Shown piece after piece: positions 11,152 through 38,257 of a stretch of DNA of 64,000 nucleotides (the stretch's first letter is position 1; each line of letters starts with the position of its first letter). Position numbers and translations under genes: made by a program. The stretch is from Spiroplasma poulsonii (lineage in GTDB: Bacteria; Bacillota_I; Bacilli_A; Mycoplasmatales; Mycoplasmataceae), in assembly GCF_009866525.1 (NCBI RefSeq), contig NZ_CM020866.1, forward strand, positions 498,260-562,259. Reading direction: 5' to 3'. The notes beneath the pieces were generated by a model that was not told the origin of the DNA, made no database searches, and saw nothing but the letters and a program-made list of their open reading frames with translations.

Positions 11152-13440
11152 ATGGCAAAGATTATATTTGAAGCTGATGACAATCGTAAAGGTATTATCG
11201 ATAAACTTTTTGCTAAAAATCAACAAAAGGTGCAAGCAGGAGATAAAATCGTTAATGTCATCACTCAAAATAAAGTATATGAAATAAAAACGCCAGAAGC
11301 TGGTGAAGTACAAAATCTTATTGCTTATGAAAATAAAGTTATTAATAGTGGCGATTTTTTATTAGAAATTGTGCCACTAGAACCCGCTCTTAATGACCAA
11401 AAATATGAAACTAGTCAAGATTATAATACTAGTTCTTTTCTTGGTTCATCAAGATATAATGCAGCTAATAATCCATCAATTGATATTAAAAAATCAGAAA
11501 CTGAAATTTTTCGTGAAGAATTAATTGAAACATTATTAGCTCGTGAAGTTACCGGTGAAAACCCTAAAAATGATTTTGAACCGACAATTGAGCTAAACTC
11601 AGAAGGAACAACACCGCAACAAGAGAAACAAAATTTATTTCAAGATAATGTTAGTACAACATCATTTTTATTAAAAGATAAAGTTGAAAATGTTATTGAA
11701 AATATTCCAAATGAAAATAATATTGAAACCTTGAAAAAGGATCTTGGCCAATTAAAAGACAATTTAACAACAGTTAAAGATGATTTAGAAACAATTAATA
11801 TTCAAGAAGAAATTATTGAAGATATTGCACATTTAGAGCGAGACTTAGCATTATCAGCAGAAATGAAAGAAAAAACGCAAAACTATGATGAAATATCAAA
11901 TACGTTGATTCACCGTATGTATACAGATATTCAAGAAGAGTTAAATCAAGAAAGTAATGAAAAAGAATTAATTTTAGATGATGATAATCCCGAAACAATT
12001 TATTTTAGTGAAGATTTAACATTAGAAGAGTTGGGAGAAGATATTGCTTTATCTGCCTCAAATATTGATGAAATGAAGACTGATTCAAAGTTAGGATATG
12101 ATGTTTTAAGGGTAACAGACGTAGTTTCAACAAAACAATATGATAATGGACCTTCCGAATCCCATCCTCATCATTCAGAATCTGTTGTTTATCATAGAGA
12201 ACCAAAACCTCATACAGAATCTCACACAATGTCTACAATCCATCATAAAGAAGTAAAACATGATGAGCCAGTAAAAACACATCATTCTGTTTCGGATCCA
12301 AAGACCCATAGTAGTCATAGTGAATCTGCTCCAGATCGAACAGAAGTAAAAGGACATTCTGCTCATTCTGAAACGCACCCGGTTTTGCATTCTGACACCT
12401 CTGAAGGTTTAAAAACACATTTTTCGCATTCAAAACCAGTAACTCATTTGAGCTCTCATGTTGATGAAGATGCTAGTTCTGGTTCAGAAACTGTTTCGCA
12501 CCCAAAACCACATGCACATGCTGGGTCTCATTCAACATCTACGGTTCACCATAAAGAAGTAAAACATGATGAAGAAGTAAAAACACATCATGCTGCTTCA
12601 CATTCAAAGGTACATAGTGGTCATAGTGAATCTGCTTCGCATTCTGTTGAAACAAAAGCACATTCGGCAGGACATTCAAAATCACATGTTGAAACATCAG
12701 AACATATGCCAGACAAAGCAGTTCTTGACCATAATGGTAAAATATTACAAGCTGACCAAATTAAATTAAATCATCAAGCAATCACCCGGGCAAAAGTAAT
12801 TATGGAAAGCAGAAAGAATATTGCTCATAGTTTTATTGATGTTGAGGTTGATGTTAGTGAATTAGTTAGTTTATTATCAATCATGCGAGAAGCATATTTA
12901 TCAAATGAGCTTGAATTAACATTATTACCATTTTATATTAAGGCAGTTTATGAGGGTTTAAAAAAATTCCCAATTTTAAATGCATCATTTATTAGTAAAG
13001 AACATGCCCTTTTATTAAAATGATTTTATAATATTGCTTTTAGTGTTGATATTGATGCGGGGATTAAAATGCCTGTTTTATCTAATTTAAAAAATGAATC
13101 AATTAAAGAAATTGCGGTAAAAGCAACAAAATTAATTGAACAAACTATTAATGATAAATTAACCGACAAAGATTATCAAGATGCATCATTTTCAATTGTA
13201 AATTATGGTGAATATGGAATTATGCGGGGAACTTTTACCATTCCAGAAGACAATGTTGCTGGAATTGCAATGGGAATTATCTTTAAAAAACCAGTTGTTG
13301 TTGAAAAAAACGATATTACAATTCGTGATATTATGATAATTACCCTTGGTTATAATGAAGCTGTGATTGATATTACTGAAGCAAGTAAGTTTGTACATTA
13401 TGTTGCATATTTATTATCAAATCCAGGATTATTGTTATAA
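11152..13440 (+). CDS. E2-like protein with lipoyl-like domain, His-rich linker and degenerate acyltransferase domain
   Basis: The 762-residue product has three parts. Residues 1-80 resemble a biotinyl/lipoyl domain (DKIVNV, TPEAGEV, NSGDFLLEI), but the usual DKV lysine site reads QNKV and may be shifted. Residues 80-340 are acidic and partly coiled-coil. Residues 341-525 are His/Ser/Glu-rich with a repeated HHKEVKHDE unit at about 12241 and 12547. Residues 525-762 align by eye with the catalytic domain of PdhC at 19177: PFYIKAV against PFFMKAC, FPILNASF against FPILNSSY, and the same NPGLLL/SPALLL end. The catalytic DHRLIDG motif is replaced by GYNEAVID, so the active-site His is missing. 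It is therefore probably not an acyltransferase. Its role is unknown; a scaffold, metal-binding or structural role is possible. It lies away from the pdh operon. Confidence 0.75.
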
Positions 13441-19176: not shown

Positions 19177-21854
<2,678 letters not shown>

Positions 21855-21997: not shown

Positions 21998-24043
21998 ATG
22001 GCAAAAAAACCAGGAAGTTGAGATAAACTTAATAAATTAACGAAAAACGTTACTGTTGCTTCGCGAAAAAGAGGGTGAATTGCGGCAATTTGTGTATTGT
22101 TATATATCGCAGTTTTAATTCCGTCGGCTTATTTTGCTGTGTCATTTTTAGCGAAAATCTTAAGTTATGGGGGAATTCAAACGGATGGTCCTTTACCAGA
22201 CTTTGAGACAGGGGATTATTTTCAAGTTAATTTTGCTAAAACTGAACTACGGGATAATACTAAAAAAACTCCTGTTTTTGCAACATATGAACTGCTACCT
22301 GATTCAACAACTGGCGGTGTTGCACAAACACGAGTTCAAACGACATCATTACGATTAGAATATGCTTATAATTATATTTTTGCAAATGCCCCAAAAATGT
22401 ATATTGCGAATAATATCTTTTTTAAAGGAAAATATGGTGATGTTAACCAAATTCAAATTTTAAATATTTACACTAATCCGCAAGGAACAAAATCATTGGG
22501 ACTTGCTGATGTTCAACAAAATAAATTAAATTTAATGGAAAATATGTTGTATTTAAAAATTAAATATAAAGGTGAAGAACAATTAACATTAATTTGAATG
22601 CCAACGCTTTTTGTTGGAATTGAAGGATTTTTATCAAACTTTTTAAATTTTAAAACAGCAGAAACAATGAACAAGGATAAACCTGACCCAACAATTTGAG
22701 AAAATCAGACAAAAATTCTTGGTAGTCAAGCAAATAATATTATGTTAAATGGAAGCAATAATAGTTTAACTTTAGATGATGAAGTTTATGCGGCTTATAA
22801 AACAAAATTTGCTGCTTTTTACAACGAAAATAAAGGGACAGATAAAGAATTTATTGGTGATTATAATCCATACAGTAATTTTGCTATTTCAAGTGTTAAT
22901 CCACAAGATCAAATTTTACCAGGGGTATTTTTTGATAGTGTTGGCTATATGTTTGATATGAATCGAGTGATTCAATCAGCACAACAAAATAATCCTGATT
23001 TTAGCGGATCACTAGCAAAAAAAGACATTAATATTGGAGGTCAATACATTCCGCAATTATTAATTTTCTTAATTAATGTTTTAGAAACATCAGAAAATCG
23101 GGGGTTAGTTTTACCCGAAGATTTAGTACCAAATGATTGAAAAGATTGATATCAATTAATTCAACCGAAACGATTAGACGTCACTAAACAAGAACAATTT
23201 TATTTTATGTTCTTGCCAAAAGATGAAACAATTCAAAATATCATTGGTAATCTTTTACGCAATCAGGTAACAGATGTCTTAAGCGGGAAAGAGACACTAG
23301 CAACTGCTGTTAAAGATTTACAACGTGATGTTTTGAGCAATCCTAATGATTCAAAATATAAATGGGTTTATGATTGAAATATTTTACCATTTCAATCATA
23401 TGGTTTTATTGAAAAAAGTGATTATACTGTCATTAAACGAACAATTCAAGAAAATAAAAATTTAGTAATTGATTTTCTTGGTAATTCTGTGCCAGGAACA
23501 GAATTTGTTACAATTGACCAACCATCATTACACTCAGTCACTAATTTAGTTCATCCAGGAAATGTTGATGCGTATACCATTGATGATCCTCAAAAACGAA
23601 ATACATTATTTACAAAATATTGAAGTGCTAACTTATATGGAGCAACAACAACACTAAATCAAATTAATATTGATGTAAGAAATATTAGTCTTGATCAAAA
23701 GGCATTTGAAACAATGTTGATGAATCAAATTATTGACCAAACATGAGCGTTTATCAAAAATATTGCCCAAGTAGCAGGAAATAAATTAAATATTATTAAT
23801 GGTATTTCAAAAGCACAATATGAAACAACTTTCAAAAAGGATTATCAAACAACATTTACCCCAGTTAATAATTATCATAGTAGTGCTGGCACATTCCTTG
23901 AATGATTTAATACCCTTCTTGCTAATGATGAAACTCGTTATAGTCTTTTTACGGTCCTTGATATTAAATTAGCATTACAAGTAGGTGGGAATATCCCAGA
24001 GAGTTTAAAGGCGGTCACTTTCCGCTTTAACATTAATTATTAA
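21998..24043 (+). CDS. Membrane-anchored surface protein, function unknown
   Basis: I do not recognise this 681-residue protein. The N-terminus is short and basic (KLTKNVTVASRKRGW). One membrane segment follows, about residues 28-52 (AAICVLLYIAVLIPSAYFAV). The remainder is a long hydrophilic region with no Cys lipobox, probably outside the cell. It contains many Asn, Thr and Tyr, as is usual for spiroplasma surface proteins. AAGGAAG precedes the ATG. The frame is open to TAA at 24041 with UGA as Trp (about a dozen codons). It has the same plan (basic tail, single anchor, long exterior) as the interrupted gene starting at 30687. IS copy B sits 17 bp past its stop. Confidence 0.75.
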
Positions 24044-24060
24044 TAAGATAATAAACAGTA

Positions 24061-25125
24061 GATTTCTTGCATTACTTGTTAAAAAATTGCAAATATTTGT
24101 AAAAAAGATATTAATAGAAAAATATAATTTTAATTAATTATGTTTTTTATTTAAAAATTTAATATTTTTCCACAACGAAAAATTAATTTATTATTTAAAT
24201 TATTTAATTTTAAATAAATATTTTATGTTAAATATAATAATTGTAAATTATAAATTGAGGCAATTAAATTAAATCTTAAACCAAATCTTTTTCTTCGATT
24301 ACGATATTTTTCTGTAATAATTTTAAATTTTTTAAGAATAGCAAAAATATTTTCAATAATAATTCTCATTTTTGAAACTAGTCTATTATATTGCTTTTGT
24401 TCTTTGTTTAAAGGGTTTTTCTTTGTTTTCTTTGTAGGTATTAGAACATTATTGTGATTTTTTTGTATTCCTTGATAACCACTATCAACTATTAATTTGG
24501 TATTTTTTAAAATTGGGATTTTTGATTCTTTAAATAAAGCATAATCATGTTTTTTTCCGAGCGAAAAACTTGTTGCAATAATTTTTTTGGTTTCTTGTTA
24601 GATAATTACTTGTGTTTTGATCGTGTGTTTTTTCTTTTTACCAGAATAAGATTGTTTTTGTCTTTTTTTGGGCGTTGGATTGGAGTTTCGGTAGCATCAA
24701 TAATAATAGTTTTATCATTAAAATAATCATTTATTAGTGCTTTTTTACCAGCAAGTTGTTGAAAATCAGAGTTTTTAATTAAAATATCTTCAATTCACTT
24801 AATATTACGATAACAATTAGCCTCACTAATATCAAAACTTTTACCAAGATGAAAATAAGTCTGATATTCTCGTCAATATAATAAAGTCATCAATAATCTA
24901 TTTTCTAATGATAATTTATTAGTTTTACCACCTTTTTTAAATTTTTCTATTTCAGCAACTTTTAAAATATCTAACATTTTATTAAAAGTGGATTTTTTTA
25001 TTCCTGTTAATCTTAACCATTCTCTATCATTAAGAGTATTAAATTTATTATTGTTCATATTTTTATGTCCTCATAAATTATATTTTATAATAATATTTTA
25101 ATAAAAAAGGGTATCGCAAGAAGTC
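24061..25125 (-). mobile_element. IS5-like element, copy B
   Basis: A full 1065-bp copy between TA at 24059-24060 and TA at 25126-25127. The left inverted end reads GATTTCTTGC, with one base changed from GACTTCTTGC. Its transposase carries a nonsense change, so this copy is probably not autonomous. It separates the 681-aa surface protein gene from the lipoprotein gene at 25175. Confidence 0.95.
24223..25058 (-). pseudogene. IS5-like transposase, copy B, nonsense mutation in second frame
   Basis: It has the two-frame layout described for copy F, joined at an A7 run. At 24598-24600 the codon GAA of the other copies has become TAA (the A at 24600 on the plus strand is C elsewhere). This stops the second frame soon after the frameshift site. 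The DDE residues Asp (VDSGYQG) and Glu (IIENIF) lie beyond the stop, so no active transposase can be made. Confidence 0.8.
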
Positions 25126-30686: not shown

Positions 30687-31976
30687 ATGGTAAAAGAAGA
30701 TAAGACTAATAATATTTTAGAATCACCAGTACCAATGCGTCGAAAATTATCGCGAAAAACTAATTTAAAGATTTTTGCCATTTATTGGAACAGTTGCGAT
30801 TGCAGCTGGTCTAGGTGGTGTTATTTATTCTGTTGTTGCACCCTCTTATTATCATAATAAAAATCCATGAGCTAATGCTACTTTGTTGGATGATAAAATT
30901 ACTAGAATGATAAATCAACAATTATCAAAACCATTACTTGATTTTAATGGTGATCCAAGGCCAGAACATTTAGCGAGTTATGTTTCTTTTAATACTGGTG
31001 AAAAAGATGGGATTGATATTTATCCTAATTTAGATAATATTAAAATTATTCAAGAAATTTTTGCAAAAAACGATTGAATTAAAAATAATTTAAGTACTGT
31101 TGAAACAATGTTAAAAGGAACAGGGGCCAACTTTGTCAGGAACTCGAATAATTTATCAAGGAAATCGATTGAATTTAATTTTACGACCAAAAATTTTAAC
31201 TTATCCCTATAATAATGGTGATGATAAATATGGGTTAGTAACAGTTACTCCTGTTGATAAAGACCGCGGATTATTTACTTATAAAATTAGATTTGTTTTG
31301 CAACTAATTGGAACTGATAATGCTGGTTATTATGTTGATTTAGAGAAAACTTTTGATTATACATATGATACAACACAAGCGGCAGTACCAACATTATTAA
31401 TTTTAAGTCAAATGTTAAATTTAATGAGTAATAGCAAAATTGTGACATTAGTTCAGAAATATGGCCTTGCGTTAGACACTAATAATGAAATAATTTTAAA
31501 TGCACTTTTAACAGAATATTATCCAATCGCAAAGGCTGATAATAGTATTATTATTAATGAGCAAGTTGTTAATAAAAATGGAACTCCATTTGCAGCAATT
31601 ACAGATAACCCTTCTGCAAGTAATTTAACATTAAATATTAAGTATAATGTTAAAAAATTTAATCCCTTACAACAATTTGGTGCTAGTTTTTTTGATTATC
31701 ATAGTAATAATTACGGGGTAATTGCCAATATTTTTACCAAAATTGGAATTAAAATGCCAACCTTTGTTAATGTTAAGAATAGTTATGATTTATATGATCG
31801 AAATACTGATCAAACATTTTTAAATGGCGTAATGCAAGATCAACGGGTTGATTCTTATCAAGGTTATATTAAAGAAATGGGATTAAGTTCTGATAATGTC
31901 TCTGATAATGTTAACTATGAAAATAATGATTTTAGTTCATATGTATGAGGTTCTGAACACCAAATTTTTTATAATA
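30687..31976 (+). pseudogene. Interrupted anchored surface protein, part 1 (N-terminal)
   Basis: First piece of a gene that once ran to 38257 and encoded roughly 915 residues. AAGGAAAGG precedes the ATG. The N-terminus is charged, then a membrane anchor follows (IGTVAIAAGLGGVIYSVVA) and a long exterior region. Two frameshifts are present: near 30770-30784, before the anchor, and near 31120-31134, before the segment beginning SGTRIIYQG. IS copy D then interrupts it at TA 31975-31976. Joining 31976 to 34655 with one TA removed continues the frame exactly (QIFYN to NEVLIQF). The plan resembles the surface protein at 21998; function unknown. Confidence 0.8.
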
Positions 31977-33041
31977 GACTTCTTGCATTACTTGTTAAAA
32001 AATTGCAAATATTTGTAAAAAAGATACTAATAGAAAAATATAATTTTAATTAATTATGTTTTTTATTTAAAAATTTAATATTTTTCCACAACGAAAAATT
32101 AATTTATTATTTAAATTATTTAATTTTAAATAAATATTTTATGTTAAATATAATAATTGTAAATTATAAATTGAGGCAATTAAATTAAATCTTAAACCAA
32201 ATCTTTTTCTTCGATTACGATATTTTTCTGTAATAATTTTAAATTTTTTAAGAATAGCAAAAATATTTTCAATAATAATTCTCATTTTTGAAACTAGTCT
32301 ATTATATTGCTTTTGTTCTTTGTTTAAAGGGTTTTTCTTTGTTTTCTTTGTAGGTATTAGAACATTATTGTGATTTTTTTGTATTCCTTTATAACCACTA
32401 TCAACTATTAATTTGGTATTTTTTAAAATTGGGATTTTTGATTCTTTAAATAAAGCATAATCATGTTTTTTTCCGAGCGAAAAACTTGTTGCAATAATTT
32501 TTTTGGTTTCTTGTTCGATAATTACTTGTGTTTTGATAGTGTGTTTTTTCTTTTTACCAGAATAAGATTGTTTTTGTCTTTTTTTGGGCGTTGGATTGGA
32601 GTTTCGGTAGCATCAATAATAATAGTTTTATCATTAAAATAATCATTTATTAGTGCTTTTTTACCAGCAAGTTGTTGAAAATCAGAGTTTTTAATTAAAA
32701 TATCTTCAATTCACTTAATATTACGATAACAATTAGCCTCACTAATATCAAAACTTTTACCAAGATGAAAATAAGTCTGATATTCTCGTCAATATAATAA
32801 AGTCATCAATAATCTATTTTCTAATGATAATTTATTAGTTTTACCACCTTTTTTAAATTTTTCTATTTCAGCAACTTTTAAAATATCTAACATTTTATTA
32901 AAAGTGGATTTTTTTATTCCTGTTAATCTTAACCATTCTCTATCATTAAGAGTATTAAATTTATTATTGTTCATATTTTTATGTCCTCATAAATTATATT
33001 TTATAATAATATTTTAATAAAAAAGGGTATCGCAAGAAGTC
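31977..33041 (-). mobile_element. IS5-like element, copy D
   Basis: A full 1065-bp copy between TA at 31975-31976 and TA at 33042-33043. It is the outer left end of the large inverted repeat and is the mirror of copy G. Against copy G I found two differences: T at 32390 (mirror of 37191) and A at 32538 (mirror of 37043). Confidence 0.95.
32139..32974 (-). CDS. IS5-like transposase (two frames), copy D
   Basis: It has the same two-frame layout and A7 run as copy F. The base change at 32390 turns VDSGYQG into VDSGYKG, next to the second catalytic Asp, which could affect activity. The change at 32538 is silent in the second frame. Confidence 0.8.
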
Positions 33042-33589
33042 TATTATATGTTCCTACCCGCAAATTAGTATTATTATAGCGTCCAACATTAAGTTCATTT
33101 ACTGCAATATTAAAAGCATTACTATGCAAACTTTCAACGGGATAATTATTACCTGGTTATCCACTACCCGTTGGATTACGATATTCTCAATCATTGGCAG
33201 CTTGAAGAATTGCTTGTTGATAATCATTATATAGGTCTTTCACCCTATCCAAGGTTGTGTATGTTTTCGATAAAGCAAAAGTTGATTGTAAAACATTAAG
33301 ATTGTTTTTATCAACGCCCCATGGATCTTTCACAACTTTAGTTGGGAGTTCATATTCATAAGATAAATCATAAAGTTTATTAAACGTTCCATCATATGAA
33401 AATTGCACATTAATAACAATGCTTGGAAAACTTAAAAGTTTATCTTGATACACCTTATTATTATTTCCTCGTAACATTCCATTGATTGGCGGTTGTTTAG
33501 TAAAAGTTGTTCCCACAATTGTTGTGGGATTTCTCCCAACACCAACGGTAATGTCCTTAACAATCTTGTTAATATCAATATATTGATTA
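33042..33589 (-). pseudogene. Inverted duplicate of surface-protein fragment (part 3)
   Basis: Between IS copies D and E. It is the reverse complement of 35992-36539 and encodes the same fragment (TTFTKQPPINGML onward), including the same in-frame TAA at 33157-33159. It faces opposite to the gene it came from and has no start of its own, so it is a displaced duplicate, not a separate gene. Confidence 0.85.
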
Positions 33590-34654
33590 GACTTCTTGCA
33601 TTACTTGTTAAAAAATTGCAAATATTTGTAAAAAAGATACTAATAGAAAAATATAATTTTAATTAATTATGTTTTTTATTTAAAAATTTAATATTTTTCC
33701 ACAACGAAAAATTAATTTATTATTTAAATTATTTAATTTTAAATAAATATTTTATGTTAAATATAATAATTGTAAATTATAAATTGAGGCAATTAAATTA
33801 AATCTTAAACCAAATCTTTTTCTTCGATTACGATATTTTTCTGTAATAATTTTAAATTTTTTAAGAATAGCAAAAATATTTTCAATAATAATTCTCATTT
33901 TTGAAACTAGTCTATTATATTGCTTTTGTTCTTTGTTTAAAGGGTTTTTCTTTGTTTTCTTTGTAGGTATTAGAACATTATTGTGATTTTTTTGTATTCC
34001 TTGATAACCACTATCAACTATTAATTTGGTATTTTTTAAAATTGGGATTTTTGATTCTTTAAATAAAGCATAATCATGTTTTTTTCCGAGCGAAAAACTT
34101 GTTGCAATAATTTTTTTGGTTTCTTGTTCGATAATTACTTGTGTTTTGATCGTGTGTTTTTTCTTTTTACCAGAATAAGATTGTTTTTGTCTTTTTTTGG
34201 GCGTTGGATTGGAGTTTCGGTAGCATCAATAATAATAGTTTTATCATTAAAATAATCATTTATTAGTGCTTTTTTACCAGCAAGTTGTTGAAAATCAGAG
34301 TTTTTAATTAAAATATCTTCAATTCACTTAATATTACGATAACAATTAGCCTCACTAATATCAAAACTTTTACCAAGATGAAAATAAGTCTGATATTCTC
34401 GTCAATATAATAAAGTCATCAATAATCTATTTTCTAATGATAATTTATTAGTTTTACCACCTTTTTTAAATTTTTCTATTTCAGCAACTTTTAAAATATC
34501 TAACATTTTATTAAAAGTGGATTTTTTTATTCCTGTTAATCTTAACCATTCTCTATCATTAAGAGTATTAAATTTATTATTGTTCATATTTTTATGTCCT
34601 CATAAATTATATTTTATAATAATATTTTAATAAAAAAGGGTATCGCAAGAAGTC
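33590..34654 (-). mobile_element. IS5-like element, copy E
   Basis: A full 1065-bp copy between TA at 33588-33589 and TA at 34655-34656. It mirrors copy F across the 272-bp spacer, and I found no difference between them by eye. Confidence 0.95.
33752..34587 (-). CDS. IS5-like transposase (two frames), copy E
   Basis: Starts at 34587. The first frame and the second frame (ending at 33752) match copy F with no nonsense change, so it is potentially active. Confidence 0.85.
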
Positions 34655-34926
34655 TAATGAAGTATTAATTCAGTTTTTAAATATTAATAATAATGGTTTG
34701 CCAGATAAAATTAACCGGGATCCAACAAAAATGTATTATGATCAACAAAGTTATACTGCTCGTTCCATTAATTATCAAGAATTTAACTTAGTTGCTAATG
34801 TTAAAGATGTGATTGAAAATATTAAATATGATGATTCAGAACAAGCAATTGATCTTCGTTTAACAAATAAGATTGATGATATTAAATCAAGTTTAAAAAG
34901 CTATTTGTTAGAAAATTTAAATAATA
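34655..34926 (+). pseudogene. Interrupted surface protein, part 2; spacer of the inverted repeat
   Basis: This 272-bp piece is the loop between the two inverted composite units. It reads in frame as NEVLIQFLNINN through SYLLENLNN with no stop. It joins in frame to part 1 upstream (31976) and to 35992 downstream once the IS copies and one TA per junction are removed. The present frame runs on into copy F, which adds RLLAIPFFIKILL and a stop. Confidence 0.8.
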
Positions 34927-35991
34927 GACTTCTTGCGATACCCTTTTTTATTAAAATATTATTATAAAATATAATTTATGAGGACATAAAAATATGAACA
35001 ATAATAAATTTAATACTCTTAATGATAGAGAATGGTTAAGATTAACAGGAATAAAAAAATCCACTTTTAATAAAATGTTAGATATTTTAAAAGTTGCTGA
35101 AATAGAAAAATTTAAAAAAGGTGGTAAAACTAATAAATTATCATTAGAAAATAGATTATTGATGACTTTATTATATTGACGAGAATATCAGACTTATTTT
35201 CATCTTGGTAAAAGTTTTGATATTAGTGAGGCTAATTGTTATCGTAATATTAAGTGAATTGAAGATATTTTAATTAAAAACTCTGATTTTCAACAACTTG
35301 CTGGTAAAAAAGCACTAATAAATGATTATTTTAATGATAAAACTATTATTATTGATGCTACCGAAACTCCAATCCAACGCCCAAAAAAAGACAAAAACAA
35401 TCTTATTCTGGTAAAAAGAAAAAACACACGATCAAAACACAAGTAATTATCGAACAAGAAACCAAAAAAATTATTGCAACAAGTTTTTCGCTCGGAAAAA
35501 AACATGATTATGCTTTATTTAAAGAATCAAAAATCCCAATTTTAAAAAATACCAAATTAATAGTTGATAGTGGTTATCAAGGAATACAAAAAAATCACAA
35601 TAATGTTCTAATACCTACAAAGAAAACAAAGAAAAACCCTTTAAACAAAGAACAAAAGCAATATAATAGACTAGTTTCAAAAATGAGAATTATTATTGAA
35701 AATATTTTTGCTATTCTTAAAAAATTTAAAATTATTACAGAAAAATATCGTAATCGAAGAAAAAGATTTGGTTTAAGATTTAATTTAATTGCCTCAATTT
35801 ATAATTTACAATTATTATATTTAACATAAAATATTTATTTAAAATTAAATAATTTAAATAATAAATTAATTTTTCGTTGTGGAAAAATATTAAATTTTTA
35901 AATAAAAAACATAATTAATTAAAATTATATTTTTCTATTAGTATCTTTTTTACAAATATTTGCAATTTTTTAACAAGTAATGCAAGAAGTC
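34927..35991 (+). mobile_element. IS5-like element, copy F (reference copy)
   Basis: A full 1065-bp copy between TA at 34925-34926 and TA at 35992-35993. Its ends are GACTTCTTGC and GCAAGAAGTC, which are 10-bp inverted ends. I use this copy to describe the element: the transposase start is 67 bp from the left end and the second-frame stop is at offset 902. The last 160 bp are AT-rich and non-coding. Confidence 0.96.
34994..35829 (+). CDS. IS5-like DDE transposase, two frames joined by probable -1 frameshift
   Basis: The first frame (34994-35446, 150 aa with UGA as Trp in LLYWREY and IKWIEDI) holds a helix-turn-helix domain (TGIKKSTFNKMLDIL) and the first acidic residue in IDATETPIQ. The second frame, one base back, has YSGKKKKHTIK, FSLGKKHDY, VDSGYQG (second Asp) and MRIIIENIFAILK (Glu, with the following Lys), ending at 35829. 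The frames meet at A7 (35383-35389), read CCA AAA AAA GAC in frame one, a classic A-AAA-AAA-type slip site. The fused product would be 278 aa. AGGACATAAAAAT precedes the ATG, giving a weak ribosome-binding site. The A7 is the same in all copies, so it is unlikely to be a random mutation. Confidence 0.9.
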
Positions 35992-36539
35992 TAATCAATA
36001 TATTGATATTAACAAGATTGTTAAGGACATTACCGTTGGTGTTGGGAGAAATCCCACAACAATTGTGGGAACAACTTTTACTAAACAACCGCCAATCAAT
36101 GGAATGTTACGAGGAAATAATAATAAGGTGTATCAAGATAAACTTTTAAGTTTTCCAAGCATTGTTATTAATGTGCAATTTTCATATGATGGAACGTTTA
36201 ATAAACTTTATGATTTATCTTATGAATATGAACTCCCAACTAAAGTTGTGAAAGATCCATGGGGCGTTGATAAAAACAATCTTAATGTTTTACAATCAAC
36301 TTTTGCTTTATCGAAAACATACACAACCTTGGATAGGGTGAAAGACCTATATAATGATTATCAACAAGCAATTCTTCAAGCTGCCAATGATTGAGAATAT
36401 CGTAATCCAACGGGTAGTGGATAACCAGGTAATAATTATCCCGTTGAAAGTTTGCATAGTAATGCTTTTAATATTGCAGTAAATGAACTTAATGTTGGAC
36501 GCTATAATAATACTAATTTGCGGGTAGGAACATATAATA
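35992..36539 (+). pseudogene. Interrupted surface protein, part 3 (native orientation)
   Basis: Continues the gene in frame from 34926 (LNN to QYIDINKIVKDI) and ends in frame with 37605 (GTYN to NAIITATKD). An in-frame TAA at 36422-36424 (PTGSG-stop-PGNNYP) is an additional lesion, also present in the inverted duplicate. So this stop is older than the duplication. Confidence 0.85.
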
Positions 36540-37604
36540 GACTTCTTGCGATACCCTTTTTTATTAAAATATTATTATAAAATATAATTTATGAGGACAT
36601 AAAAATATGAACAATAATAAATTTAATACTCTTAATGATAGAGAATGGTTAAGATTAACAGGAATAAAAAAATCCACTTTTAATAAAATGTTAGATATTT
36701 TAAAAGTTGCTGAAATAGAAAAATTTAAAAAAGGTGGTAAAACTAATAAATTATCATTAGAAAATAGATTATTGATGACTTTATTATATTGACGAGAATA
36801 TCAGACTTATTTTCATCTTGGTAAAAGTTTTGATATTAGTGAGGCTAATTGTTATCGTAATATTAAGTGAATTGAAGATATTTTAATTAAAAACTCTGAT
36901 TTTCAACAACTTGCTGGTAAAAAAGCACTAATAAATGATTATTTTAATGATAAAACTATTATTATTGATGCTACCGAAACTCCAATCCAACGCCCAAAAA
37001 AAGACAAAAACAATCTTATTCTGGTAAAAAGAAAAAACACACGATCAAAACACAAGTAATTATCGAACAAGAAACCAAAAAAATTATTGCAACAAGTTTT
37101 TCGCTCGGAAAAAAACATGATTATGCTTTATTTAAAGAATCAAAAATCCCAATTTTAAAAAATACCAAATTAATAGTTGATAGTGGTTATCAAGGAATAC
37201 AAAAAAATCACAATAATGTTCTAATACCTACAAAGAAAACAAAGAAAAACCCTTTAAACAAAGAACAAAAGCAATATAATAGACTAGTTTCAAAAATGAG
37301 AATTATTATTGAAAATATTTTTGCTATTCTTAAAAAATTTAAAATTATTACAGAAAAATATCGTAATCGAAGAAAAAGATTTGGTTTAAGATTTAATTTA
37401 ATTGCCTCAATTTATAATTTACAATTATTATATTTAACATAAAATATTTATTTAAAATTAAATAATTTAAATAATAAATTAATTTTTCGTTGTGGAAAAA
37501 TATTAAATTTTTAAATAAAAAACATAATTAATTAAAATTATATTTTTCTATTAGTATCTTTTTTACAAATATTTGCAATTTTTTAACAAGTAATGCAAGA
37601 AGTC
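36540..37604 (+). mobile_element. IS5-like element, copy G
   Basis: A full 1065-bp copy between TA at 36538-36539 and TA at 37605-37606. It is the outer right end of the inverted repeat and apparently intact. Confidence 0.95.
36607..37442 (+). CDS. IS5-like transposase (two frames), copy G
   Basis: The same two-frame gene as copy F with no nonsense change; the second frame ends at 37440-37442. It is potentially active. Confidence 0.85.
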
Positions 37605-38257
37605 TAATGCAATAATTACGGCAACGAAAGACTCATTAAATTATCAAGGCAGTTTTAAAACAGGGGTTATTCGGATTACAGCAGCACCAATTAGTGCCAT
37701 TTCCTTGTCACAATTAGTGGTGGATAGTTCTTGGACCCAACAGCGTGCCTATCGTGAAATTAAAGCACAAATTCTAGCACGAGCACAAAGTAGGGGGTTA
37801 AATTTAAATGATTCTGATTTTAGCATTAGTGGTATTACAGAAAATAGTTTAATAAAATTAACAATCGGTCAAAAGACAATTACAATTACTGCCCTTGGCA
37901 ATGATAATGTTGTAACGGGGATAACAACCTTTAATTTAACTGTGGAGCCTGTTTCAATTAATAAATATTATAATAAGATTAATCCTGGGCAGCAAAAAGT
38001 TGGTAATTCGGTTCGAAATGTCGTAATCACCATCATGAATCAACTAAAAGCAGCTATTAATAGGGATGGTTATAATATTAATAATATTACTAATTATTTT
38101 ACAATTGTTATTACGGGATGGAAATGGCCGCCGATTAAATGATAGTAGTATTTTTCAAGTGTTAGGAAGATATTGGTATGATATTGCAGTAACAGCAACG
38201 GATGGTTCAAAATATTTTGATGGGATAATATCACGTGATTTTATTGTTGAAAAGTAG
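37605..38257 (+). pseudogene. Interrupted surface protein, part 4 (C-terminal)
   Basis: Last piece of the gene that began at 30687. It reads NAIITATKDSLNY and on through a unit like those in the lipoprotein at 25175: a SLSQLVVDSS strand, then a helix RAYREIKAQILARA, then TIGQKTITITAL. A frameshift near 38110-38140 (VITGWKWPPIK against RLNDSSIFQVLG) separates the final 40 residues, which end DFIVEK at 38257. It has no start of its own. Confidence 0.78.

Follow-up and report, generated by a model that had tools for sequence, protein, structure and literature searches.

PseE2-A of Spiroplasma, a catalytically dead E2-type protein and candidate structural scaffold, and its relative PseE2-B, whose distribution appears to follow MreB

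The window analysed here, a stretch of 64,000 nucleotides from Spiroplasma poulsonii (NZ_CM020866.1, positions 498,260 to 562,259), encodes PseE2-A, a catalytically dead protein of the type of the E2 subunit of pyruvate dehydrogenase (PDH). A second dead E2 paralogue, PseE2-B, is encoded in the same genome, and its distribution appears to follow that of MreB and not that of PDH. The preferred explanation, to which we give an even chance of being correct, is that PseE2-A is a paralogue of the PDH E2 that can neither be lipoylated in the usual way nor transfer acetyl groups, that it is kept as a structural scaffold, and that the family to which it belongs serves MreB-based machinery.

The gene for PseE2-A occupies positions 11152..13440 of the forward strand (ATG at 11152, TAA at 13440) and encodes 762 amino acids in genetic code 4, with a single TGA decoded as Trp. 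A preliminary description of the window had reported an E2-like protein with an intact frame of 762 codons at this place, and this is confirmed by Pfam, which assigns residues 537-762 to the 2-oxoacid_dh family (PF00198, E=1.2e-41) and thereby identifies a C-terminal CAT-fold domain, and by an ungapped BLAST alignment to the PdhC of the window (205 residues, of which 29% are identical; E=5e-28), a similarity far beyond chance. This PdhC (19177..20454, forward strand) is an ordinary lipoyl- and E3-binding E2 with the motif DHRLIDG, for which 2-oxoacid_dh, Biotin_lipoyl and E3_binding (E=2.5e-12) are all matched in Pfam; it serves as the comparison paralogue and lies outside the finding. Four parts can be distinguished in PseE2-A. 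The N-terminal domain (residues 1-75, 11152..11376) is of the barrel-sandwich, lipoyl/biotinyl-like type: Biotin_lipoyl matches residues 13-73 with a marginal E=1.3e-4, just above its cut-off, a Biotin_lipoyl match is found in 13/13 PseE2-A orthologues, the domain can be aligned to PDB 3duf, and its model shows seven beta strands (pLDDT ~60-78). It is followed by an acidic linker (11377..12141) with the conserved motif KKSETEIFREELIETLLAREV (residues 113-133), which sits where an ordinary E2 has its peripheral-subunit-binding domain. The columns K113, K114, E116-E118, F120-L129, R131 and V133 are invariant or nearly so among 13 sequences, so that this motif is the conserved feature of the linker and may act as a docking segment. 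Next comes a His/Ser-rich repeat expansion (residues 331-530, 12142..12741), and finally the E2 catalytic-type domain (residues 531-762, 12742..13437), which ends with NPGLLL. This C-terminus is almost invariant among the orthologues and corresponds to the region through which E2 trimers contact one another. Since the AlphaFold models of full-length PseE2-A and PseE2-B computed from genus alignments are poor (mean pLDDT 35.4 and 37.8), the homology of both proteins rests on sequence profiles; the profile of 13 PseE2-A orthologues finds 3duf as the best of the solved E2 cores (E=2.9e-35). A promoter scan found sites no more numerous than in shuffled sequence.

The replacement of DHRLIDG by GYNEAVID, as the preliminary description had it, is present, and both the ungapped BLAST alignment and the profile alignment to solved E2 cores place the catalytic His of DHRxxDG at Glu736 (GYNE). 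In aligned columns this position is Glu in 12/12 PseE2-A and His in 12/12 PdhC sequences, which also answers the objection that the His might be retained elsewhere; nor are the homologues with the same architecture normal E2s. The column of the Ser/Thr partner contains Val, Ile or Phe in PseE2-A (Val683 in the window protein), as opposed to Thr or Ser in 12/12 PdhC; here the residue before the conserved Asn was assumed to be the equivalent of S558 of Azotobacter vinelandii E2p. The later Asp of the motif (Asp740 in the window protein) is retained in 11/12 PseE2-A sequences. In the N-terminal domain, the preliminary description had set QNKV against the TDKV of PdhC. No usable lipoyl lysine is present, and the register differs: the aligned lipoyl position is Asn40, and Ser or Asn across the orthologues, while the Lys of QNKV lies one residue further and is Arg in two of them. 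Furthermore, E3_binding (PF02817) gave no match in any of the 13 members at E values up to 10. By every sequence criterion tested PseE2-A thus appears to be a pseudoenzyme and not an active lipoylated E2, since the catalytic His, the Ser/Thr partner, the lipoyl Lys and the E3-binding domain are all missing, and its catalytic loss is well supported.

PseE2-B (P0004; L004:6207-9218, minus strand) has 1003 aa. Behind a head at the N-terminus follows a long middle part, in which several motifs are conserved, and then the C-terminal E2 domain, towards the end of which stands TVDQRIIDAAEAG. Its His column contains Gln in 19/20 and Arg in 1/20 sequences, the S558-equivalent is Ala in 18/20, and none of the PseE2-B proteins scanned has an E3_binding domain. 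The E2 domain is under very strong constraint (dN/dS ~0.02). All 14 genomes of the genus contain PseE2-B, and it is conserved in other helical Spiroplasma genera of the family: 20 additional genomes yielded full open reading frames of at least 855 aa with the DQR motif at their end, and shorter versions occur in two genomes of genus g10. In a tree of E2 domains PseE2-A, PseE2-B and PdhC form three separate clades (support 100, 99 and 93, respectively). The stem of PseE2-A is very long, so that the tree points to no exact parent. PseE2-B is best read as the older, larger and more widespread member of the family and PseE2-A as a younger, genus-level paralogue. A recent duplication of the neighbouring pdhC as the source of PseE2-A was also considered and is ruled out by this separate, long-stemmed clade. 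The pattern of substitutions bears on another explanation, according to which the E2 domain senses acyl-CoA, CoA or another ligand, or performs altered chemistry, with Glu or Gln in place of His allowing binding without transfer or a different reaction. Residues around the former active site show strong conservation, in PseE2-B especially, the Asp of the motif is mostly retained, and a His mutant of the yeast E2 reportedly stays active, which means that loss of the His alone need not abolish activity. However, each of the proteins has lost two catalytic residues, with different replacements, the lipoylated carrier domain is missing from both, and conservation of the fold explains the conserved residues equally well, so that we regard a sensor or altered enzyme as unlikely.

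A search of other Spiroplasma, as the preliminary description had proposed, found PseE2-A in 14/14 genomes of the genus, among them S. phoeniceum P40 (G007) and a S. phoeniceum isolate. The gene is intact in 13 and broken by stops and loss of frame in one (G011); an order-wide sample of 298 genomes contains no full-length PseE2-A outside the genus. Comparison of well-diverged pairs gives a dN/dS of 0.09-0.31 for the N-terminal domain and 0.04-0.15 for the E2 domain. These values lie far below 1 and, together with the intact frames, uphold the earlier claim that the frame is kept by selection. They also weigh heavily against the view that PseE2-A is a functionless, decaying duplicate of pdhC, for which the lost catalytic residues and the broken copy in G011 could be cited: one and the same catalytic substitution has become fixed throughout the PseE2-A sequences, and these form a deep clade of their own and no recent copy of pdhC. 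We therefore consider decay very improbable.

The linker differs from the folded domains in its evolution. It comprises ~455 residues (76-530) in the window protein, and its residues 331-530 include 39 His (20%) and 38 Ser. The preliminary description had placed about 180 residues rich in His, Ser, Glu and Lys between the two domains; the richness in His and Ser is borne out, whereas the length is not, the His-rich part alone amounting to ~200 residues. The two HHKEVKHDE motifs that it had mentioned are found at residues 364 and 466 and belong to a direct repeat of 177 nt, whose copies are 73% identical and start 306 nt apart. In the same divergent pairs in which the E2 domain is conserved, the His-rich part has a dN/dS of 0.55-0.98. 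The number of linker His falls from 37-43 in the closest relatives to 10-19 in the phoeniceum-like group and 6-7 in S. eriocheiris/mirum-like and chrysopicola-like genomes, and the repeat expansion is absent or short in distant orthologues. The His-rich stretch is thus a young, fast-evolving and lineage-specific repeat expansion. This bears directly on the earlier suggestion that PseE2-A may bind metal, and on the corresponding explanation that it is a metal-binding or metal-storage protein with the His-rich linker as its functional part. The abundance of His speaks for it, but a recent, fast-evolving stretch that is confined to some lineages, in a protein in which both folded domains are conserved, makes metal binding a most improbable core function; as such it was rejected on the variability of the linker and the dN/dS. 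The stretch may bind metal as a side effect.

Whether PseE2-A belongs to the PDH complex can be judged from genomes that have lost it. A search for PdhC found nothing in G004, G007, G008 and G011, and in G012 a copy that stops interrupt. The remnants at the pdh locus are fragments of lplA and pdhD in G004, a 5' fragment of pdhA in G007, and in G012 broken pdhC and pdhD together with a 3' fragment of pdhB; nothing is left in G008. PseE2-A is intact in four of these five genomes without working PdhC (G004, G007, G008 and G012), despite their deleted or broken pdh genes, as it is in 9/9 genomes that contain PdhC. In G011 PseE2-A is broken and PdhC is missing, but MreB, fibril and PseE2-B are retained. 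Among four pdh-less genomes pN/pS reaches 0.56 for the E2 domain of PseE2-A, compared with 0.18 for the neighbouring control gene yhaM and 0.17 for PseE2-B. Since the values for PseE2-B and yhaM are likewise higher than in other pairs (from 0.03 and 0.07, respectively), part of this change is genome-wide; the constraint on PseE2-A in the pdh-less group is weak. The survival of the gene in four genomes with ruined pdh genes speaks, short of a clean proof, against PseE2-A being a mere subunit of the complex, and makes the independence from PDH that the preliminary description had contemplated the better reading.

The same genomes bear on a further explanation, in which PseE2-A is an accessory of PDH like the E3-binding protein (E3BP, protein X), co-assembles with PdhC, maintains the shape of the complex or regulates it, and is slowly lost with it. 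Such inactive E2 paralogues exist in mammals and fungi (PMC10156792), the gene lies ~6 kb upstream of the pdh cluster, PseE2-A is always intact beside PdhC and broken in 1/5 genomes without working PdhC, and it is less constrained in the pdh-less group. On the other side stand the absence of the defining E3-binding domain from 13/13 orthologues, the absence of the lipoyl lysine, and the four intact copies beside deleted or broken pdh genes. An accessory of this kind therefore seems rather unlikely, although it deserves more weight than a ligand sensor.

Several observations on pdh genes and on other parts of the window stand by themselves. The deleted or broken pdh genes (L148, L147, L149 and L151) occur in a group that includes S. 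phoeniceum; nox is intact in G004 and G007, and lplA is intact in G007 and broken in G004. Just after pdhD, positions 21998-24043 of the window encode a 681-aa protein that has no Pfam match at E<0.001 and is 65% conserved in pdh-less relatives. In some other genera the E3 (PdhD) has its own N-terminal lipoyl domain (L157:2575-4002, L158:2571-4004 and L159:129-1961), and in L155 the lipoyl part of E2 (ORF 2117-2503) is encoded apart from its catalytic domain (1378-2163). Positions 31966-37615 of the window form a perfect inverted repeat with arms of 2691 nt and 268 nt between them, which could be either a real palindrome or an assembly artefact. It holds copies of a 150-aa ORF that is repeated in the window (also at 24606, 30015, 58218 and 63402) and is probably an insertion-sequence transposase.

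The distribution of PseE2-B bears on the role of the family. Among 60 genomes of the family, PseE2-B is present in 42/42 with 4-9 strong MreB matches and in 0/18 with only weak or distant ones. Five genomes of a second family were compared as well. In G035 four full MreBs accompany an intact PseE2-B of 692 aa; the MreBs of G022 contain stop codons and its PseE2-B of 670 aa is intact; G047 is down to a scrap of MreB, and its PseE2-B is broken; in G041 MreB is absent and PseE2-B survives as scraps; G029 has neither. Co-distribution with MreB is seen across all 60 genomes of the first family and in 4/5 of the second, where the two decay in parallel, but it goes back to few independent losses and is suggestive. 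The loci at successive stages of decay of the MreB and PseE2-B genes (L166, L167, L168 and L170) form a natural series for the loss of a cytoskeleton. As for PDH, the five genomes without working PdhC retain MreB and PseE2-B, and 16 genomes have an E2 yet neither a Spiroplasma-type MreB set nor PseE2-B. This is a double dissociation, which suggests that PseE2-B goes with MreB and not with PDH. It also counts against the E3BP-like explanation, since a relative with the same active-site losses persists where PdhC is gone and is lacking from genomes that have an E2 but no MreB. The fibril protein was found in all 42 PseE2-B-bearing genomes of the family, and a link of PseE2-B to fibril in place of MreB was considered as well; it is ruled out by the second family, in which none of the five genomes gave a full-length fibril match while those that bear MreB have PseE2-B. 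The correlation with MreB has exceptions and confounders. G029 and G041 also gave no match for PdhC, and reduced symbionts lose many genes together; PseE2-B is absent from G023, which has a single strong MreB, and from several genomes with divergent MreB-like genes. PseE2-A itself is confined to one genus and is broken in G011, which keeps MreB.

Proteomic tables for Spiroplasma help to delimit the role. The 16 proteins that have been identified in S. eriocheiris from its Triton-insoluble fraction (PMC5289999, Table 1) include neither PseE2-A nor PseE2-B, and the two are also missing from the table for the isolated ribbon (PMC9582952, Table 2); both tables cover major bands only. Their absence from the detergent-insoluble fraction indicates that neither is a major component of the ribbon there; a role as a low-abundance anchor, at the pole, at the membrane or in assembly, is possible.

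In known structures, E2 catalytic domains assemble as trimers, which in turn make up larger shells, and flexible arms carry the lipoyl heads. According to the scaffold explanation, PseE2-A and PseE2-B would have kept this layout and lost the chemistry, with the E2 domain as core and the linker as arms. The C-terminal domain of PseE2-A would trimerise and perhaps assemble further into a larger shell, in the manner of E2 cores, and its flexible arms would display the barrel-sandwich head and the docking motif at residues 113-133. One particle could thereby hold several partners and act as a multivalent hub, binding them through the head and the conserved linker motifs in either protein. Oligomerisation and docking are inferred, and a scaffold function of both proteins is likely. 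Since PseE2-B is present with the MreB set and decays with its loss, the home of the family would be the MreB-based machinery for cell shape and swimming, or an organisation that depends on it. PseE2-B would most likely serve MreB-dependent cell organisation, and PseE2-A the same structure or a related one. The cytoskeletal link is a good hypothesis for PseE2-B, and for PseE2-A by extension only. A bolder proposal, which we advance tentatively and hold to be less probable than the scaffold explanation, is that E2-derived pseudoenzymes have been overlooked as a structural component of the MreB cytoskeleton in Spiroplasma, in which PseE2-B would be ancient and near-universal, PseE2-A a later paralogue, and trimeric or cage-like cores with long arms would organise MreB filaments, the cell pole or membrane attachment.

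Word searches of the open literature, with subscription papers outside their scope, found no description of E2-like pseudoenzymes in Spiroplasma. Inactive E2 paralogues are already known as accessory subunits of PDH (PMC10156792); here a whole E2-derived family seems to have left the complex, with PseE2-A outliving the loss of PDH in some genomes and PseE2-B following MreB across two families. Where a species has lost the complex, its metabolic model is misled if these genes are automatically annotated as E2 subunits. Compared with the bacterial PDH E2 (PdhC/AceF; PDB 3duf, 1b5s), PseE2-A has the same succession of lipoyl-like head, linker and C-terminal CAT-fold domain, and the profile match spans the whole E2 domain. 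By contrast, it is without the catalytic His, the Ser/Thr, the lipoyl lysine and the peripheral-subunit-binding domain, its linker comprises 277-451 residues, and it is kept in some genomes without genes for E1, PdhC and E3. The E3BP of mammalian and fungal PDH is an inactive E2 paralogue with an E3-specific peripheral-subunit-binding domain (PMC10156792). PseE2-A resembles it as an E2 paralogue with an inactive C-terminal domain, and PDB 6h60 turns up among the matches of the profiles for PseE2-A (E=2.8e-15) and PseE2-B. However, PseE2-A has no E3-binding domain and its distribution is not tied to PDH, and the two occur in different organisms and probably arose independently. Although the inactive domain is shared, the missing E3-binding domain means that PseE2-A should not be filed as an E3BP; it may work like one in the sense of a structural relative of E2. 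The closest precedent comes from the same bacteria, in which the fibril protein is derived from an MTA/SAH nucleosidase and is thus a metabolic enzyme turned cytoskeletal protein (PMC8432965). Its fold is unrelated to that of PseE2-A and PseE2-B, and it is absent from the second family, where MreB-bearing genomes have PseE2-B. If the cytoskeletal link is true, the pseudo-E2 family would provide a conserved protein that is missing from current models of helical swimming, and, after the nucleosidase-derived fibril, the second enzyme-derived part of the Spiroplasma cell-shape machinery.
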